Shown here in pieces: positions 21,190-27,727 of a stretch of DNA of 33,328 nt. The stretch covers positions 1 through 33,328 of IMG/VR virus record IMGVR_UViG_3300042731_009031, one strand, 5' to 3'. Position 1 is the stretch's first letter. Each line of letters opens with the position of its first letter. Source of the DNA: a virus. The notes below the pieces were generated by a model. That model worked only from the letters and a program-made list of their open reading frames with translations, had not been told where the DNA came from and did no database searches. Both the position numbers and the translations under genes were made by a program.

Positions 21190-21219
21190 TTGACACGGTA
21201 GAGGAGGGTATGGTATACT
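21190..21219 (+). promoter_or_regulatory. Strong promoter TTGACA-N18-TATACT with extended -10
   Basis: TTGACA (21190-21195) is perfect, TATACT (21214-21219) is preceded by TGG (extended -10), and the spacer is 18 bases. An inverted repeat TGTCG/CGACA (21219-21223 and 21228-21232) overlaps the start point and could be an operator. Confidence 0.85.
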
Positions 21220-21388: not shown

Positions 21389-21922
21389 ATGACTCGGATT
21401 ACGATTGGAATCGATCCCGACACGAAAGCCACGGGGATCGGCGTGCTGAAGAATGGGAAGCCGGAGTTCGCCGTCACTGCTGAGGCCTCGGGGCGACTGG
21501 CTTTTGATCGCGTGGAGGAAATGGGGTGTTCGCTACACAAGGTCTTGTTGGCATGCAAGGAGCGAATTGGTTCCCATCTGCTTCTTCGTGCTGAAATAGA
21601 AATAGCTATTGAATGGTTTTCCCTTCGTAAGCAAGATATTCAACAGGGCGTGGGCAAGTGCAACCGCATCATGGCACTTCAGGGTGTTGCAGGTTTAGCT
21701 TTTCAAGCAGCAAAAATAGTATTTCCAATGGTGCGAATCGTCCATGTCTATCCCTGTAATTGGAAAGGCACAGTGCCAAAGAAGATACACCAGAACAGGC
21801 TTCGCACCCATCTGAAGTCTGATCTACTTGACAACATGGAGCGAGATCTCGGTAAGACCAAGTTCTCGCACGTCCTCGACGGCCTGGGCCTTGCCCTGGC
21901 TCTCTACAAACAGAAAATATGA
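21389..21922 (+). CDS. RuvC-like Holliday junction resolvase (177 aa)
   Basis: ATG 21389 has GAAGGG upstream and lies right after the leader terminator. The motif GIDPDTKATGIGVL (Asp9) opens a RuvC/RNase H-like fold. A Glu in IAIEWF (Glu75) and HVLDGLGLALA (His161, Asp164) supply the usual acidic site. Length suits phage RuvC-type resolvases. It would cut branched DNA intermediates before packaging. It is transcribed from its own promoter, separate from the replication operon, suggesting different timing. The next gene starts in an ATGA overlap with its stop. Confidence 0.8.
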   Translation: MTRITIGIDPDTKATGIGVLKNGKPEFAVTAEASGRLAFDRVEEMGCSLHKVLLACKERIGSHLLLRAEIEIAIEWFSLRKQDIQQGVGKCNRIMALQGVAGLAFQAAKIVFPMVRIVHVYPCNWKGTVPKKIHQNRLRTHLKSDLLDNMERDLGKTKFSHVLDGLGLALALYKQKI

Positions 21923-22605
21923 CAATGCGCTCTACGATCCTGACCTGTGGGCTGGTCCTCCTCTTCCTCCTACCCGCTTGCTGCACTTCTTCTCTGCTCA
22001 CCTCCATCGGGATCGTAGAAGCGCCCTTCATTACCACCTCGCAGAACGTCTGGCTCTTGTCCAGTCCTCGCGGGAAAGAGGGGTCCGCGGTCCCCGTGTA
22101 TTGTGAGTGGGACGATACTCTTCAGCAATTCCGGGTGATTTTTCTCACTGCAGGGCATTGCACAAAAGAGTTCAATACCTATTCTGTGTTGGATGCCGCA
22201 GAGAAATGGGACCTCCGAGGAGGTATGATTCTGGAGACCCACGAAAAGCAGGATCTTTCACTTCTGGTTTTCTATGTAGACGTCCCTGTATTACCTTGTT
22301 CCTATACCTCTCGGATTCCTTCGTTCGGTCAGAAGGTCTACATTGCTGGTTACCCCTTGGCTCGTCGACTTCTGCTCACAGAGGGATTTATGGGCATTGC
22401 GGAAGATAAGAGTTCTGCTCTTGCAGTATTTGGAAATTCAGGCGGGGCTATTATGGATTCCCAGGGGCGGGTGTTTGGGATCGTGGTGGGTCTTGCTGGT
22501 TGTCGCTATGGCCCCGTCTACCACATGAGCCGGTTCGAGCCGCTGACTTCAGAAATTCTGGAGTGGATGCACGAGATCATAAACCGACCCGGATTACCCC
22601 TGTAG
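21919..22605 (+). CDS. Trypsin-like serine protease lipoprotein (228 aa)
   Basis: The start is an ATGA overlap with the resolvase gene. The N-terminus is a lipoprotein signal: a hydrophobic stretch ending in LPAC, so the mature protein would begin at Cys21 and be anchored to a membrane. The rest is a chymotrypsin-fold protease with LTAGHC (His80), QDLSLLVF (Asp112) and FGNSGGAI (Ser174) as catalytic triad. It overlaps the opposite-strand gene by 29 bases at its 3' end. A secreted, membrane-anchored protease is rare in phages. Roles in superinfection immunity or host-surface change are possible, all inference. Confidence 0.8.
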   Translation: MTMRSTILTCGLVLLFLLPACCTSSLLTSIGIVEAPFITTSQNVWLLSSPRGKEGSAVPVYCEWDDTLQQFRVIFLTAGHCTKEFNTYSVLDAAEKWDLRGGMILETHEKQDLSLLVFYVDVPVLPCSYTSRIPSFGQKVYIAGYPLARRLLLTEGFMGIAEDKSSALAVFGNSGGAIMDSQGRVFGIVVGLAGCRYGPVYHMSRFEPLTSEILEWMHEIINRPGLPL

Positions 22606-23119
22606 CGGTATCCTCTATATTCAGGGCTCCGTCTTCTCGGAGCCCATCCAAGATCCATTTTTCCAAGGAAGGCACGGCTACCTCCCGGGCCTGGCTGAGG
22701 AATCCCCGCATGCCTTTGGTGAAGAAGTGCTTGCCGGCGGCCGGGCCCACCCTCCGACGAATATGGATTTCGTTCCCTTCCAGGGCAGCATAGAACTGCC
22801 CTCGGGTCAGGCGCCGGGCATCTGCGTAACGCTTTGGGCGCCCCCCTCGGATGCGGGGATCTCGGGAGGGGTTCTTGAAAAACACCAGGCGCTTGGCTTT
22901 TTTGGGGCCGAAGCCCCGTCTTCCATCGTGATAGTAGACCGCCCAGTAGTGAGGAATGTGGACGATCCCAGTGGTAGTCTTGCTGCTGGTGTGTTCGACC
23001 CGCACCTCCAGGGCATCCCGCAAGGTGCGGGATTCAATTACAGACTTGGCCCGGCGCCGGGCCTTTTGCGCCAGGAGGAAGGCTATTTCAGCCCGAAGTT
23101 GAATAGCACTAAGCTGCAT
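22577..23119 (-). CDS. Probable virion protein downstream of the portal gene (180 aa)
   Basis: Its start overlaps the portal gene stop by 11 bases, so it is coupled to it. The product starts MQLSAIQLRAEIAFLLAQKA and has a beta-rich middle with IPHYWAVYYHDGRRGFGPKK and PSRDPRIRGGRPKRYA, both basic. The pattern is reminiscent of small tail-completion or gp10-type neck proteins, but I cannot name a family with confidence. No catalytic motif is seen. The gene ends 29 bases inside the protease gene on the other strand, so the two operons converge without a visible terminator. Confidence 0.55.
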   Translation of the reverse strand: MQLSAIQLRAEIAFLLAQKARRRAKSVIESRTLRDALEVRVEHTSSKTTTGIVHIPHYWAVYYHDGRRGFGPKKAKRLVFFKNPSRDPRIRGGRPKRYADARRLTRGQFYAALEGNEIHIRRRVGPAAGKHFFTKGMRGFLSQAREVAVPSLEKWILDGLREDGALNIEDTATGVIRVGL

Positions 23120-24578
23120 CCCGGAAGATTCCGTCCACCATTTTCACCAGGAACTCAGAGAGGATCTGCTTCTTGATCCCCTCATCCAGATCCCTCTCTT
23201 CCTCGGCCTGTTGAGGGAGCTGCTCCCGAGAGCGGTTGAGAGTATCCATCGGCTTCAACTTCTTCATCTGTTCAGCGATCTCGTCGACGATGGTTTTGAA
23301 TTTGAAGTCGCCCCGCTTGAGCTTGAGCTGGCCATTCAATTTCGTATCGCCCAGGGTATCGTCAAGGATGGCTTCGAGGGTCTCCTGCGCCGGCCCGATT
23401 ACAAGAGCTTGGAATGCAAGGATGGCGTTCGGGGTTTCATTCGTTGCACCAAGCTTTCCAGGAATTAAGATGCCTGCCAGGATTGGGGGGACACGGTGCG
23501 CCGACACGATGTTGAGGGCGAGCGTCTCCATCATACTCTTGAAGTAGTCCCCGTCCTCGGACCTCTCCATCGCCAGCTTTTCGAGCTGCACCGTCAGGTT
23601 GGGGTCGTCCAAGTTGACGGCCATCGACTTGTGAGTGTTGCCCAGACCGATGTTGCGGTCGATGGAGGCCTCGATCTCTGCCCATTCATCGTCGCCTACC
23701 TTTGCTCCAAGAAGAAAGAGCATGAACTCTGGCACGCCCCGGTTCAAGTGGAAGTCAAACTGGTGCTGCATCAGGGCCTGCACCAATTCGATGGAGGCCA
23801 CCGCGGACAGCCACGAGGGGTAACCATAATACCGGGAGAGTGAGGAAGCATCCATGATATGGATCAGTTCCGAGAACGATCTATCGTCGGAGGCATTTCC
23901 TCCTTGGTATCGGTAGGTGTTCCGCAGATCTCGAGCGTCTGACAACTTTGAGTTCGAGGTGGCCGCTTCTCCGGCACGGACCAGACCTCCAGCCCTGTCG
24001 GTTTCTCCGTAGTAGAAGTCCAGGCCATCCCCCCATGCAGCAAACCTCCGGTCGCCCGATTCGGTCGTCTGCTTGTAGTGCTTCTCGTAGAGGGAGTTCT
24101 CGATCACTACCGTGACCGAGTTCCCGGGGAGGAAATGCAATCCGAGGATCTCTGTGCGTGAGCGGTTCCAGACAACCTCGAGATAGCTATTGGCGATCTG
24201 GCAGAAGTCTTCAGCCAGCGCCTGCAGCACGCTCGACCAGCAGACCGAAGTGAGGGGGCCCAGCTCTTCTTTGACCTTGTCATTCTCATGGCCCAGCCCG
24301 ACGATGGCCTGCACTTTGGCCTCGATGCAGGTGCTGTGGTGCACGTTGTGGTTCTTGAAAGCAATCGTGCTGCGCATGTTGAAGGGGTGGTATTTCTCCC
24401 CTGTTTCCACCCGCTGATTGGACGATCCCCCCTCAGGCTCTTCCTTCTTCATCAGCAGCGAGAGATAGCTCGATTGGAAGTCGCCCGTGGAGACTTGGGG
24501 GAAGAGGTCTCGAGATTTTCGCGCAAAGTTTTTGATGTTGACCTGACACTTGCGCTTGGTCGGAGCCTGCACGGCCAT
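23109..24578 (-). CDS. Portal protein (489 aa)
   Basis: Start ATG (24578-24576) follows CAGGAG on the minus strand. The protein has the order of a phage portal: an N-terminal region with FNMRSTIAFKNHNVHHSTCI, a clip and stem part with ELIHIMDASSLSRYYGYPSW (portal-like ILHI...YG.P), and HRVPPILAGI with a helical C-terminus. Length suits portals of siphoviruses. It forms the head vertex ring through which DNA is packaged and to which the tail binds. Unusually, it lies opposite to the protease and capsid genes and is driven by its own arm of the symmetric promoter at 24634-24675. The exact family is not assigned. Confidence 0.75.
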   Translation of the reverse strand: MAVQAPTKRKCQVNIKNFARKSRDLFPQVSTGDFQSSYLSLLMKKEEPEGGSSNQRVETGEKYHPFNMRSTIAFKNHNVHHSTCIEAKVQAIVGLGHENDKVKEELGPLTSVCWSSVLQALAEDFCQIANSYLEVVWNRSRTEILGLHFLPGNSVTVVIENSLYEKHYKQTTESGDRRFAAWGDGLDFYYGETDRAGGLVRAGEAATSNSKLSDARDLRNTYRYQGGNASDDRSFSELIHIMDASSLSRYYGYPSWLSAVASIELVQALMQHQFDFHLNRGVPEFMLFLLGAKVGDDEWAEIEASIDRNIGLGNTHKSMAVNLDDPNLTVQLEKLAMERSEDGDYFKSMMETLALNIVSAHRVPPILAGILIPGKLGATNETPNAILAFQALVIGPAQETLEAILDDTLGDTKLNGQLKLKRGDFKFKTIVDEIAEQMKKLKPMDTLNRSREQLPQQAEEERDLDEGIKKQILSEFLVKMVDGIFRDAA

Positions 24579-24633
24579 ATTTTTTCTCCTGTATTGGATA
24601 CCAGCATCTAAAGGAGTGATTTTTCTGGTTTTT

Positions 24634-24675
24634 ATCATTGGCATTCTACCACCATTGATATAGAATGCCAAAGAT
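24634..24675. promoter_or_regulatory. Symmetric divergent promoter pair in an inverted repeat
   Basis: Two 15-base arms (24634-24648 and 24661-24675), with one mismatch, flank a 12-base spacer. On the plus strand TTGGCA (24638-24643) and TAGAAT (24661-24666) are 17 bases apart. By symmetry the minus strand has TTGGCA (24671-24666) and TAGAAT (24648-24643), also 17 apart. The -35 on one strand is therefore the -10 on the other, and the two start points face outward. It would drive the portal unit and the head operon from the same 34 bases. Both match sigma70 with one substitution per box. Confidence 0.7.
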
Positions 24676-24703
24676 ATTTTGGCCAAAAGCTCGGATACTA
24701 CAC

Positions 24704-25783
24704 ATGCCCAAAAAGCCGAAAGCACGCATTCTCCGTGGTCGGATTACGCACATTTCGCTCGTAGATCGCGGAGCCAACCAGATTGAAACCCTCTACAAGG
24801 CAGAGGATGATGGGTCGTTCGAGATCCACACCCTGATGGCCAAGTCCTCAGAAGAGGGCTTGCTGACTGCCCTGGTCTACCTGCCGGAACAGGTCGATGC
24901 CCATGGACACATTGCGTCCATGGAAGTCATCAAGAGCCTGTGCCATGACTACTTCTCCGAAGGAGGAGGCCAGATCGATGTTATGCACGATCTGGAAGAC
25001 ATCCAGGGGGGTGCTCACATCGCGGAATCCTTTATGGTTCAAAAGGGTGATCCTCGATTCGCAGGTATCAAGGATTACGATGGGAACGTAGTTGATCCCA
25101 CCGGGTCCTGGGGAGTCATCATCAAGCTCCAGGATGAGCGTCTGCGTGCGCTGTATCGCGAAGGACGCTTCAACGGCGTGAGCATGTTTGGAAAAGGCGT
25201 TCTTGCGCCAACCGAGCAGGTCACAAAGCAATTCCAGAACGCCCTGGCCGATCGGCTGGGCAGCCCCTCTCAAGGAGACGATTCGATGAACGAAGAGCAG
25301 ATGACCAAGTTGCTCGAGAAGTTTTTCCAGCCGATCAACAAGCGGCTGGAGAAGCTGGAGAAGCTGGAGAAGCCCGAGCCGAAGCCCGAGCCGGAACCGG
25401 TCCAGAAGTCCGAGCCCGAGATCAAGTTCGAGGGCGATCCGACCAGTGCTGAGGATCTGGCCAAGCACAAGGACAAGGTCTTCCAGGCGTCTTGCGATCT
25501 CAACACTCTCGAGGGCATCGAGAAGTGGGAGAAGTATCAGGCGGCCAAGGCCGAGCCCAAAGAGGTGAAAAAGGTCGAAGAGGTCGAGGAAAGCGAAGAG
25601 ATCAAGAAGGCTCTGGCCGACAAGGCTGGGCTGGAAAAGAAAATCGCCGATCTCCGAAAGGCCAGTTCCCAGAAGGGCGACGAGGTGCAGACCACCCTGT
25701 CCAAGGAAGAGCAGCTTCAGAAGGGCTTCGACCTTGGCAAGAGTATCGGCCAGAATTGGAACAAGAGCCTCGGTCGCGAGTAG
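24704..25783 (+). CDS. XkdF-type head protease with scaffold domain (359 aa)
   Basis: I choose ATG 24704, since the promoter start point (about 24673) lies after the alternative ATG at 24665. Residues 11-27 (RGRITHISLVDRGANQI) match the start of XkdF/S78_2 phage proteases. His95 in VMHD and Ser160 in GVSMFG fit the catalytic pair. Residues after 195 are a charged coiled-coil scaffold (KRLEKLEKLEK, then Lys/Pro/Glu-rich). An internal ATG with AAGGAG at 25272-25277 begins the scaffold alone. The protease trims the prohead and scaffold during capsid maturation. The gene is first in the rightward head operon. Confidence 0.75.
   Translation: MPKKPKARILRGRITHISLVDRGANQIETLYKAEDDGSFEIHTLMAKSSEEGLLTALVYLPEQVDAHGHIASMEVIKSLCHDYFSEGGGQIDVMHDLEDIQGGAHIAESFMVQKGDPRFAGIKDYDGNVVDPTGSWGVIIKLQDERLRALYREGRFNGVSMFGKGVLAPTEQVTKQFQNALADRLGSPSQGDDSMNEEQMTKLLEKFFQPINKRLEKLEKLEKPEPKPEPEPVQKSEPEIKFEGDPTSAEDLAKHKDKVFQASCDLNTLEGIEKWEKYQAAKAEPKEVKKVEEVEESEEIKKALADKAGLEKKIADLRKASSQKGDEVQTTLSKEEQLQKGFDLGKSIGQNWNKSLGRE
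25286..25783 (+). CDS. Nested scaffold protein from an internal start (165 aa)
   Basis: AAGGAG (25272-25277) lies eight bases before ATG 25286, in frame with the protease gene. The product starts MNEEQMTKLLEKFFQPINKR and is a highly charged coiled-coil rod, typical of head scaffold proteins. The arrangement matches the lambda C/Nu3 gene pair, where scaffold is made from a start inside the protease gene. It needs no transcript of its own and ends with the protease frame. Confidence 0.65.
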   Translation: MNEEQMTKLLEKFFQPINKRLEKLEKLEKPEPKPEPEPVQKSEPEIKFEGDPTSAEDLAKHKDKVFQASCDLNTLEGIEKWEKYQAAKAEPKEVKKVEEVEESEEIKKALADKAGLEKKIADLRKASSQKGDEVQTTLSKEEQLQKGFDLGKSIGQNWNKSLGRE

Positions 25784-26668: not shown

Positions 26669-27727
26669 GTGGCTCAACTCCCCCAGGTCCTCGAGTATTA
26701 TTCCCTCACCGGCATGGTGAACGAGATGAAGACTCCTCAGGCTTTCCTGAAGAACCTTCTGTTTTCGGACACCGAAGAGCAGGGTGGTGAGAATATCGTT
26801 TACGGCGTTATCGAAGGCGGGCGCAATGTGGCGCCCTTCGTGAAGAAGAACGGCCAGGCCGTCATGAGCGGTGGATACACCGAAAAGGAAATCACCGTTG
26901 GCCCGCCCAATATTCGGATCAAGCGTCCGATCGAAGCAGCCGATGTGATCTTCCGCAGGCACGCAGCCGACACCATTTTCATCAGCTCCGGCAATGCCGA
27001 AGCCGCCCGGGATCGCGAGGTCGCCCGTCAGATGCAGCGTCTGAACGACGAGGTTGCCAATGCCGAGGAGTATCTCTGCTCCATGGCCATCCAGGGCACC
27101 ATTGACTACACGGACGCGGACAACGATCATTTCCAGATCACGTTTCCGAAGTCCGTGGGCAACACCATCACCCTGTCCGATTTCTGGGACCAGACCGGCG
27201 ACTGCGCCGAAACTGTGATGACCGTGCGTATGCGTATGCACGACCAGGTTTCCCTGCAGCCCACCCACTGCATTCTTGGCAGCGAGGCGGCTGTATCCTT
27301 CATCAAGAATGCCAGTGTTCGATCTCTCCTGGACGTCCGGAATCTGAACATTGGTAAGCTGGATCTTACCAGTGGGATTGCCGGCGCGGACAGCATGTTG
27401 CAGGGCGCCATGTATCTCGGCGCCATTTTCGGCATCCAGTTCTGGTCCTATCACCCGCAGGTCACGGTGAATGGTGTGGCGACGGACCTCATTCGTCCGA
27501 AGTATGCCGAGTTTGTGCATGCAAGTCCCATGGCTCAGAACAAGCTCTACTACGGAGCTATTTCTGATCTGGATGCCCTCGACAACAAACTGCTGGCCGC
27601 CAGGCGGTTCTCGAAGTCGAAGGTCCAGTGGGACCCCAGTATCCTGGAGATCCTCATCGCCTCCAGGCCGCTCCCCGTTCCGCGCCGGCCCGACTCCATC
27701 GTGAGCGTGAAAGTGGTCTCCGGATAA
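26669..27727 (+). CDS. Major capsid protein (352 aa)
   Basis: GTG 26669 follows AAAGGAG (26654-26660). The protein resembles lambda gpE-type capsid proteins: an N-terminal region with MKTPQAFLKNLLFSDTEEQ, an acidic/aromatic middle (PNIRIKRPIEAADVIF), and LQGAMYLGAIFGIQFWSYHP. A C-terminal part has KYAEFVHASPMAQNKLYYGA. Length and gene order (protease, decoration, capsid) fit. It forms the head shell. It is followed by a strong hairpin at 27748-27775 and then the first connector gene, so capsid mRNA may be made in excess. I assign it to the lambda-type HK97 fold by pattern, not by a search. Confidence 0.8.
   Translation: MAQLPQVLEYYSLTGMVNEMKTPQAFLKNLLFSDTEEQGGENIVYGVIEGGRNVAPFVKKNGQAVMSGGYTEKEITVGPPNIRIKRPIEAADVIFRRHAADTIFISSGNAEAARDREVARQMQRLNDEVANAEEYLCSMAIQGTIDYTDADNDHFQITFPKSVGNTITLSDFWDQTGDCAETVMTVRMRMHDQVSLQPTHCILGSEAAVSFIKNASVRSLLDVRNLNIGKLDLTSGIAGADSMLQGAMYLGAIFGIQFWSYHPQVTVNGVATDLIRPKYAEFVHASPMAQNKLYYGAISDLDALDNKLLAARRFSKSKVQWDPSILEILIASRPLPVPRRPDSIVSVKVVSG

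Follow-up and report, generated by a model that had tools for sequence, protein, structure and literature searches.

In the window, as the 33,328-base IMG/VR virus record analyzed here will be called, the portal (-) and XkdF-type protease/capsid (+) genes diverge from a 125-bp gap (24579-24703). This gap contains a 44-bp inverted repeat, which is probably (at a rough probability of 0.65) a symmetric, mutually exclusive divergent pair of sigma70-type promoters. The direct observations behind this reading are the sequence of the repeat, its statistics, the layout of the genes around it, and the conservation of the divergent layout among relatives.

Because the portal and protease genes diverge, each operon needs a promoter in or beside the gap. 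To the left, the portal gene (23109-24578, - strand; phrog_12, E 5e-14; PF04860, E 6e-10) is the first of a two-gene operon, the second gene of which (22577-23119, - strand) encodes a 180-aa protein without a family match. To the right, the head operon begins with the gene for an XkdF-type prohead protease (Peptidase_S78_2; 24704-25783, + strand; PF14550, E 3e-18; phrog_3017, E 2e-23), followed by those for a 256-aa protein without a family match and the major capsid protein E (26669-27727, + strand; PF03864, E 1e-47), and by further genes. The ribosome-binding site of the portal gene is good (AGGAG, in the leader); that of the protease gene is weak.

The repeat occupies positions 24633-24676 and reads TATCATTGGCATTCTA-CCACCATTGATA-TAGAATGCCAAAGATA. 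Its extended left (24633-24648) and right (24661-24676) arms are complementary at 15 of 16 positions, and include a perfect 11-bp core: TTGGCATTCTA (24638-24648) on the left and TAGAATGCCAA (24661-24671) on the right, separated by the 12-bp inter-arm spacer CCACCATTGATA (24649-24660). A search of the window for the same repeat returned this copy as its single match, with none in 100 shuffles, and no copy was found when the repeat was sought in viral contigs.

Both strands of the repeat read TTGGCA-17-TAGAAT, for a match to the sigma70 consensus of 10/12 in each direction. The putative rightward (protease/capsid) promoter has its -35 box at 24638-24643 (+ strand; P 0.01 vs. shuffles) and its -10 box at 24661-24666 (+ strand), and from the spacing would start transcripts at a G near 24673. 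The putative leftward (portal) promoter has a -35 sequence match at 24666-24671 (- strand) and a -10 box, extended by an upstream TGG, at 24643-24648 (- strand), and by the same reckoning would start them at a G near 24636. The arrangement is that of an overlapping divergent sigma70 pair, with -35 and -10 boxes at 16-18 bp spacing on each strand and overlapping footprints. An earlier note on this DNA had placed the starts at 24636 and 24673, and a re-check of the sequence found these estimates and the note's coordinates to be correct. It had also described two complete outward promoters, serving the portal and head operons, whose footprints overlap fully and whose -35 and -10 boxes are the same base pairs. 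The promoters and their footprints are as it described, but the identity of the boxes was an error: they abut, with only 1 bp per arm in common (24643 and 24666). Each arm consists of the -35 box of one promoter adjoining the -10 box of the other, and full overlap is confined to the polymerase footprints.

The gap was compared with 20,000 dinucleotide shuffles of its own 125 bp. A promoter matching the consensus at 10/12 or better was found on the + strand in 3.8% of these, on the - strand in 2.8%, and on both strands in 0.15% (0.0015); a perfect 11-bp repeat with a spacer of 3-20 bp was found in 0.05% (0.0005). The mirror relation of the arms also means that the promoter matches on the two strands count as one observation, not two independent ones. 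A single perfect 11-bp repeat somewhere in the 33 kb would not stand out, shuffles of the window having 0-3 each; the significance is carried by the repeat, the promoter match, and the location together. In a weight-matrix scan, with a simple matrix built from the consensus and not fitted to this phage's host, both promoters rank best on their own strand, each above ~99% of gap shuffles. The window as a whole has seven promoters matching at 10/12 or better, vs. 1.4 +/- 1.1 expected (12 shuffles), which suggests that this phage makes use of the classical sigma70 consensus. The strongest of the window's promoters, TTGACA-18-TATACT with an extended -10 (21190-21219), is located just upstream of a gene with a weak match to Holliday junction resolvases.

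As a mechanism, host RNA polymerase could bind the repeat facing right or, in mirror image, facing left. Facing right, it would read TTGGCA (24638) and TAGAAT (24661), and transcribe the protease/capsid operon from ~24673; facing left, it would read the mirrored boxes, and transcribe the portal operon from ~24636. The footprint of RNA polymerase spans roughly -55 to +20 relative to each start. The two polymerases would both cover the same ~75 bp, and would not be able to occupy it simultaneously. Such exclusion, which the earlier note had also predicted, is expected from the geometry, because each arm pairs the -35 box of one promoter with the -10 box of the other and the footprints, which by coordinates overlap completely, cover the same DNA. 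We infer that both promoters would fire, from the starts given above, and would exclude each other in vivo, possibly with some effect on the portal-to-capsid ratio; a coupling or balancing of portal against capsid supply by the predicted mirror promoter is possible but unproven. Each phage head combines a single portal ring with a capsid of hundreds of subunits; the setting of this ratio at the level of transcription has seldom been examined. A mirror-image promoter would be a very compact way of coupling two operons, and, with nearly identical boxes in both directions, a clean natural construct for the study of polymerase competition. Late phage genes often rely on phage factors, not on bare sigma70 promoters, which counts against the promoter reading. 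How much exclusion matters may depend on promoter strength, by analogy with five bidirectional promoters of E. coli that had too little basal activity to compete and did so on (strong) activation only (PMC12825309).

The mirror element is best read as a variant of known overlapping or bidirectional promoters, analogous to PP/PO of the P2-like phages, and not as a new kind of system. The overlapping divergent promoters of tetA/tetR in Tn10 and PR/PRM in lambda are likewise close or overlapping and fire in opposite directions, with polymerase interference, but these are asymmetric and repressor-controlled; the window's promoters are close and opposing as well, but are near mirror images of each other, with no repressor site known there. 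In the bacterial bidirectional promoters described by Warman, Grainger and colleagues, one -10 element is common to both directions, and the starts are mostly 10, 18, or 23 bp apart (PMC12825309, PMC10268837). The likeness to the window's repeat is considerable: these too are pseudo-symmetric DNA, often between divergent genes, which polymerase can engage either way, one binding excluding the other. The window's -10 boxes, however, are separate, 12 bp apart, and each abuts the -35 box of the other promoter, and its predicted (unmapped) starts are ~37 bp apart instead of 10, 18, or 23. With no common -10 (24643-24648 vs. 24661-24666) and a different start spacing, the repeat falls outside the definition of a bidirectional promoter used by these authors. 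The PP/PO late promoters of P2-like phages resemble the window's in serving divergent portal-side and capsid-side operons and in having a dyad in the gap; PP' and PO' of Smp131 have been assigned to a single 18-bp stretch, read both ways (PMC3931495). There, however, the dyad (TGT-N12-ACA) is tied to an Ogr-type activator. The window's gap contains no TGT-N12-ACA, no Ogr-type gene was seen among the families scanned, and the window's protease and capsid belong to families, Peptidase_S78_2 and Phage_cap_E, that set it apart from the P2-like phages.

No DNA-level relatives of the window were found in phage records, and no relatives in bacterial or archaeal genomes; the nearest relatives are ~47% identical in portal protein. 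A portal profile search of viral contigs yielded 38 loci. In ~28 distinct IMG/VR contigs besides the window, portal and protease are on opposite strands with adjoining starts, which makes the divergent layout an old, stable trait; one distant relative, L041, has both genes on the same strand. The comparison of arms among related phages proposed in the earlier note would need closer relatives than these, in which the layout is kept, but the repeat sequence is not. Among 21 gaps compared, with start codons called by hand, the window's is alone in having this sequence, and L009 alone has a comparable mirror pair. The lack of conservation of the repeat, and the different arrangement of most relatives, count against the symmetric-promoter reading. 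In its favor, L009 (portal 47% identical) has an independent outward promoter pair inside one repeat with 12-bp arms, AATTTTATCACA-11-TGTGATACAATT, whose letters differ from those of the window; its -10 boxes, TAAAAT (-) and TACAAT (+), each overlap the -35 box of the other promoter (P 0.01 for the repeat; below 0.005 and 0.01 for the promoters). The promoters assigned in the relatives are predicted with varying strength, and many score no better than shuffles: putative promoters are facing in L011, L013, L021, L031, L005, and L006, and outward and spaced in L003. L011, L021, and L031 each have two look-alike extended -10 boxes facing one another (TGNTAGACT ... ATTCTACCACATG); the arms are conserved and the spacer varies in both length and sequence. 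A scan for facing pairs of this kind returned the same three contigs only. In L056, L059, and L061, which came from a protease-profile scan, the window's repeat was not seen by eye.

The two -10 regions resemble each other more within a locus than between loci (7.1 vs. 5.7 of 14 positions; P 0.0002 with near-duplicates removed). Leaving out L014, which is AT-rich, weakens this to P 0.002, and a count limited to non-core positions gives P 0.03-0.07. These figures are a hint only that the two -10 regions evolve as a pair. It is decidedly improbable that in this phage lineage selection keeps two matched and mutually interfering promoters of the gap as mirror images, with arm changes compensated and an exclusive choice of direction setting the portal-to-capsid ratio; the window and L009 would then have answered one constraint independently, each in its own letters.

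A tentative but quite possible alternative is that both promoters are real but symmetric only by accident, two copies of one consensus having come to lie in mirror register, with any exclusion unselected. This agrees with the preferred explanation on the promoters, and differs from it on whether the mirror matters. Look-alike pairs may arise easily, since the putative -10 boxes of several relatives share approximately TGTGNTAGAMT on both strands (L003, L009, L011, L021, L031), and the geometry of the relatives' pairs ranges from facing to spaced. Against this, the window's arm match extends well past the hexamers, its best-pair score is the highest of the 21 loci, and the within-locus likeness of the -10 regions points, if faintly, to paired evolution.

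Symmetry of this extent, which at 15/16 bp reaches the predicted starts, exceeds the strict needs of two promoters, and might instead mean that the repeat is mainly an operator, where a dimeric phage or host regulator bound to both arms would switch both promoters (an early-phase repressor site, for example). The divergent late operons of P2-like phages do have a common activator dyad (PMC3931495), but, as noted, this dyad is not in the window's gap. Further arm copies in the window are not above chance level (11 vs. 7 +/- 2.6, with two mismatches allowed), which argues against a multi-site operator; a regulator was recognized in none of the approximately two dozen window proteins scanned, many of them without a family match; and relatives have not kept the repeat. 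On balance an operator is unlikely. That the repeat works as RNA, whether as a hairpin or as a bidirectional terminator, is hardly credible: the region folds well if transcribed through (z -4.2), but a transcript begun at 24636 or 24673 would not hold both arms, neither strand has a U run following the stem, the diverging genes leave a terminator nothing to stop, and the predicted leaders fold no better than shuffles. An intrinsic terminator or RNA hairpin was accordingly rejected as a class for this feature, the layout being wrong and the GC-rich stem with a U run downstream of a gene not being found.

Apart from the window's mirror repeat, many of the relatives' gaps contain a small palindrome, GATA-N4-TATC (or GCTA-N4-TAGC), just 5' of the portal start, which may be an operator or a leader element. 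It is present in 9 of the 21 gaps (L006, L010, L014, L016, L019, L026, L028, L029, and L030), where ~1.5 would be expected, the motif having been defined after viewing these same gaps; it is also found in L061. The window has an imperfect copy in a portal-leader element with GATACCAGCATC (24594-24611), which is close to GATACGGGCATC in L061. A regulon based on this palindrome was not apparent, as there was no excess elsewhere, and close matches in L010 and L026 were confined to the portal leader.

Some relatives have promoter-like sequences very near the protease start. In L011, L021, and L031, GATTCTACCACATG is kept up to the protease ATG, and is carried by these three contigs alone; its leftward reading gives the portal gene an extended -10 (TGTGGTAGAAT), so that the predicted portal promoter abuts the protease start codon. 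In L016, L018, L019, L020, and L026, the best protease -10-like box ends a few bases before the ATG, which suggests leaderless or nearly leaderless protease mRNAs.

Elsewhere in the window, a gene for a trypsin-like protease with a hydrophobic N-terminus is found at 21919-22605, between the replication and head genes. Two near-identical hairpins, CCGGCCCCTATCCCAGGGGCCGG (1458-1481 and 1742-1764), have T-rich tails on both sides, and are likely duplicated bidirectional terminators.
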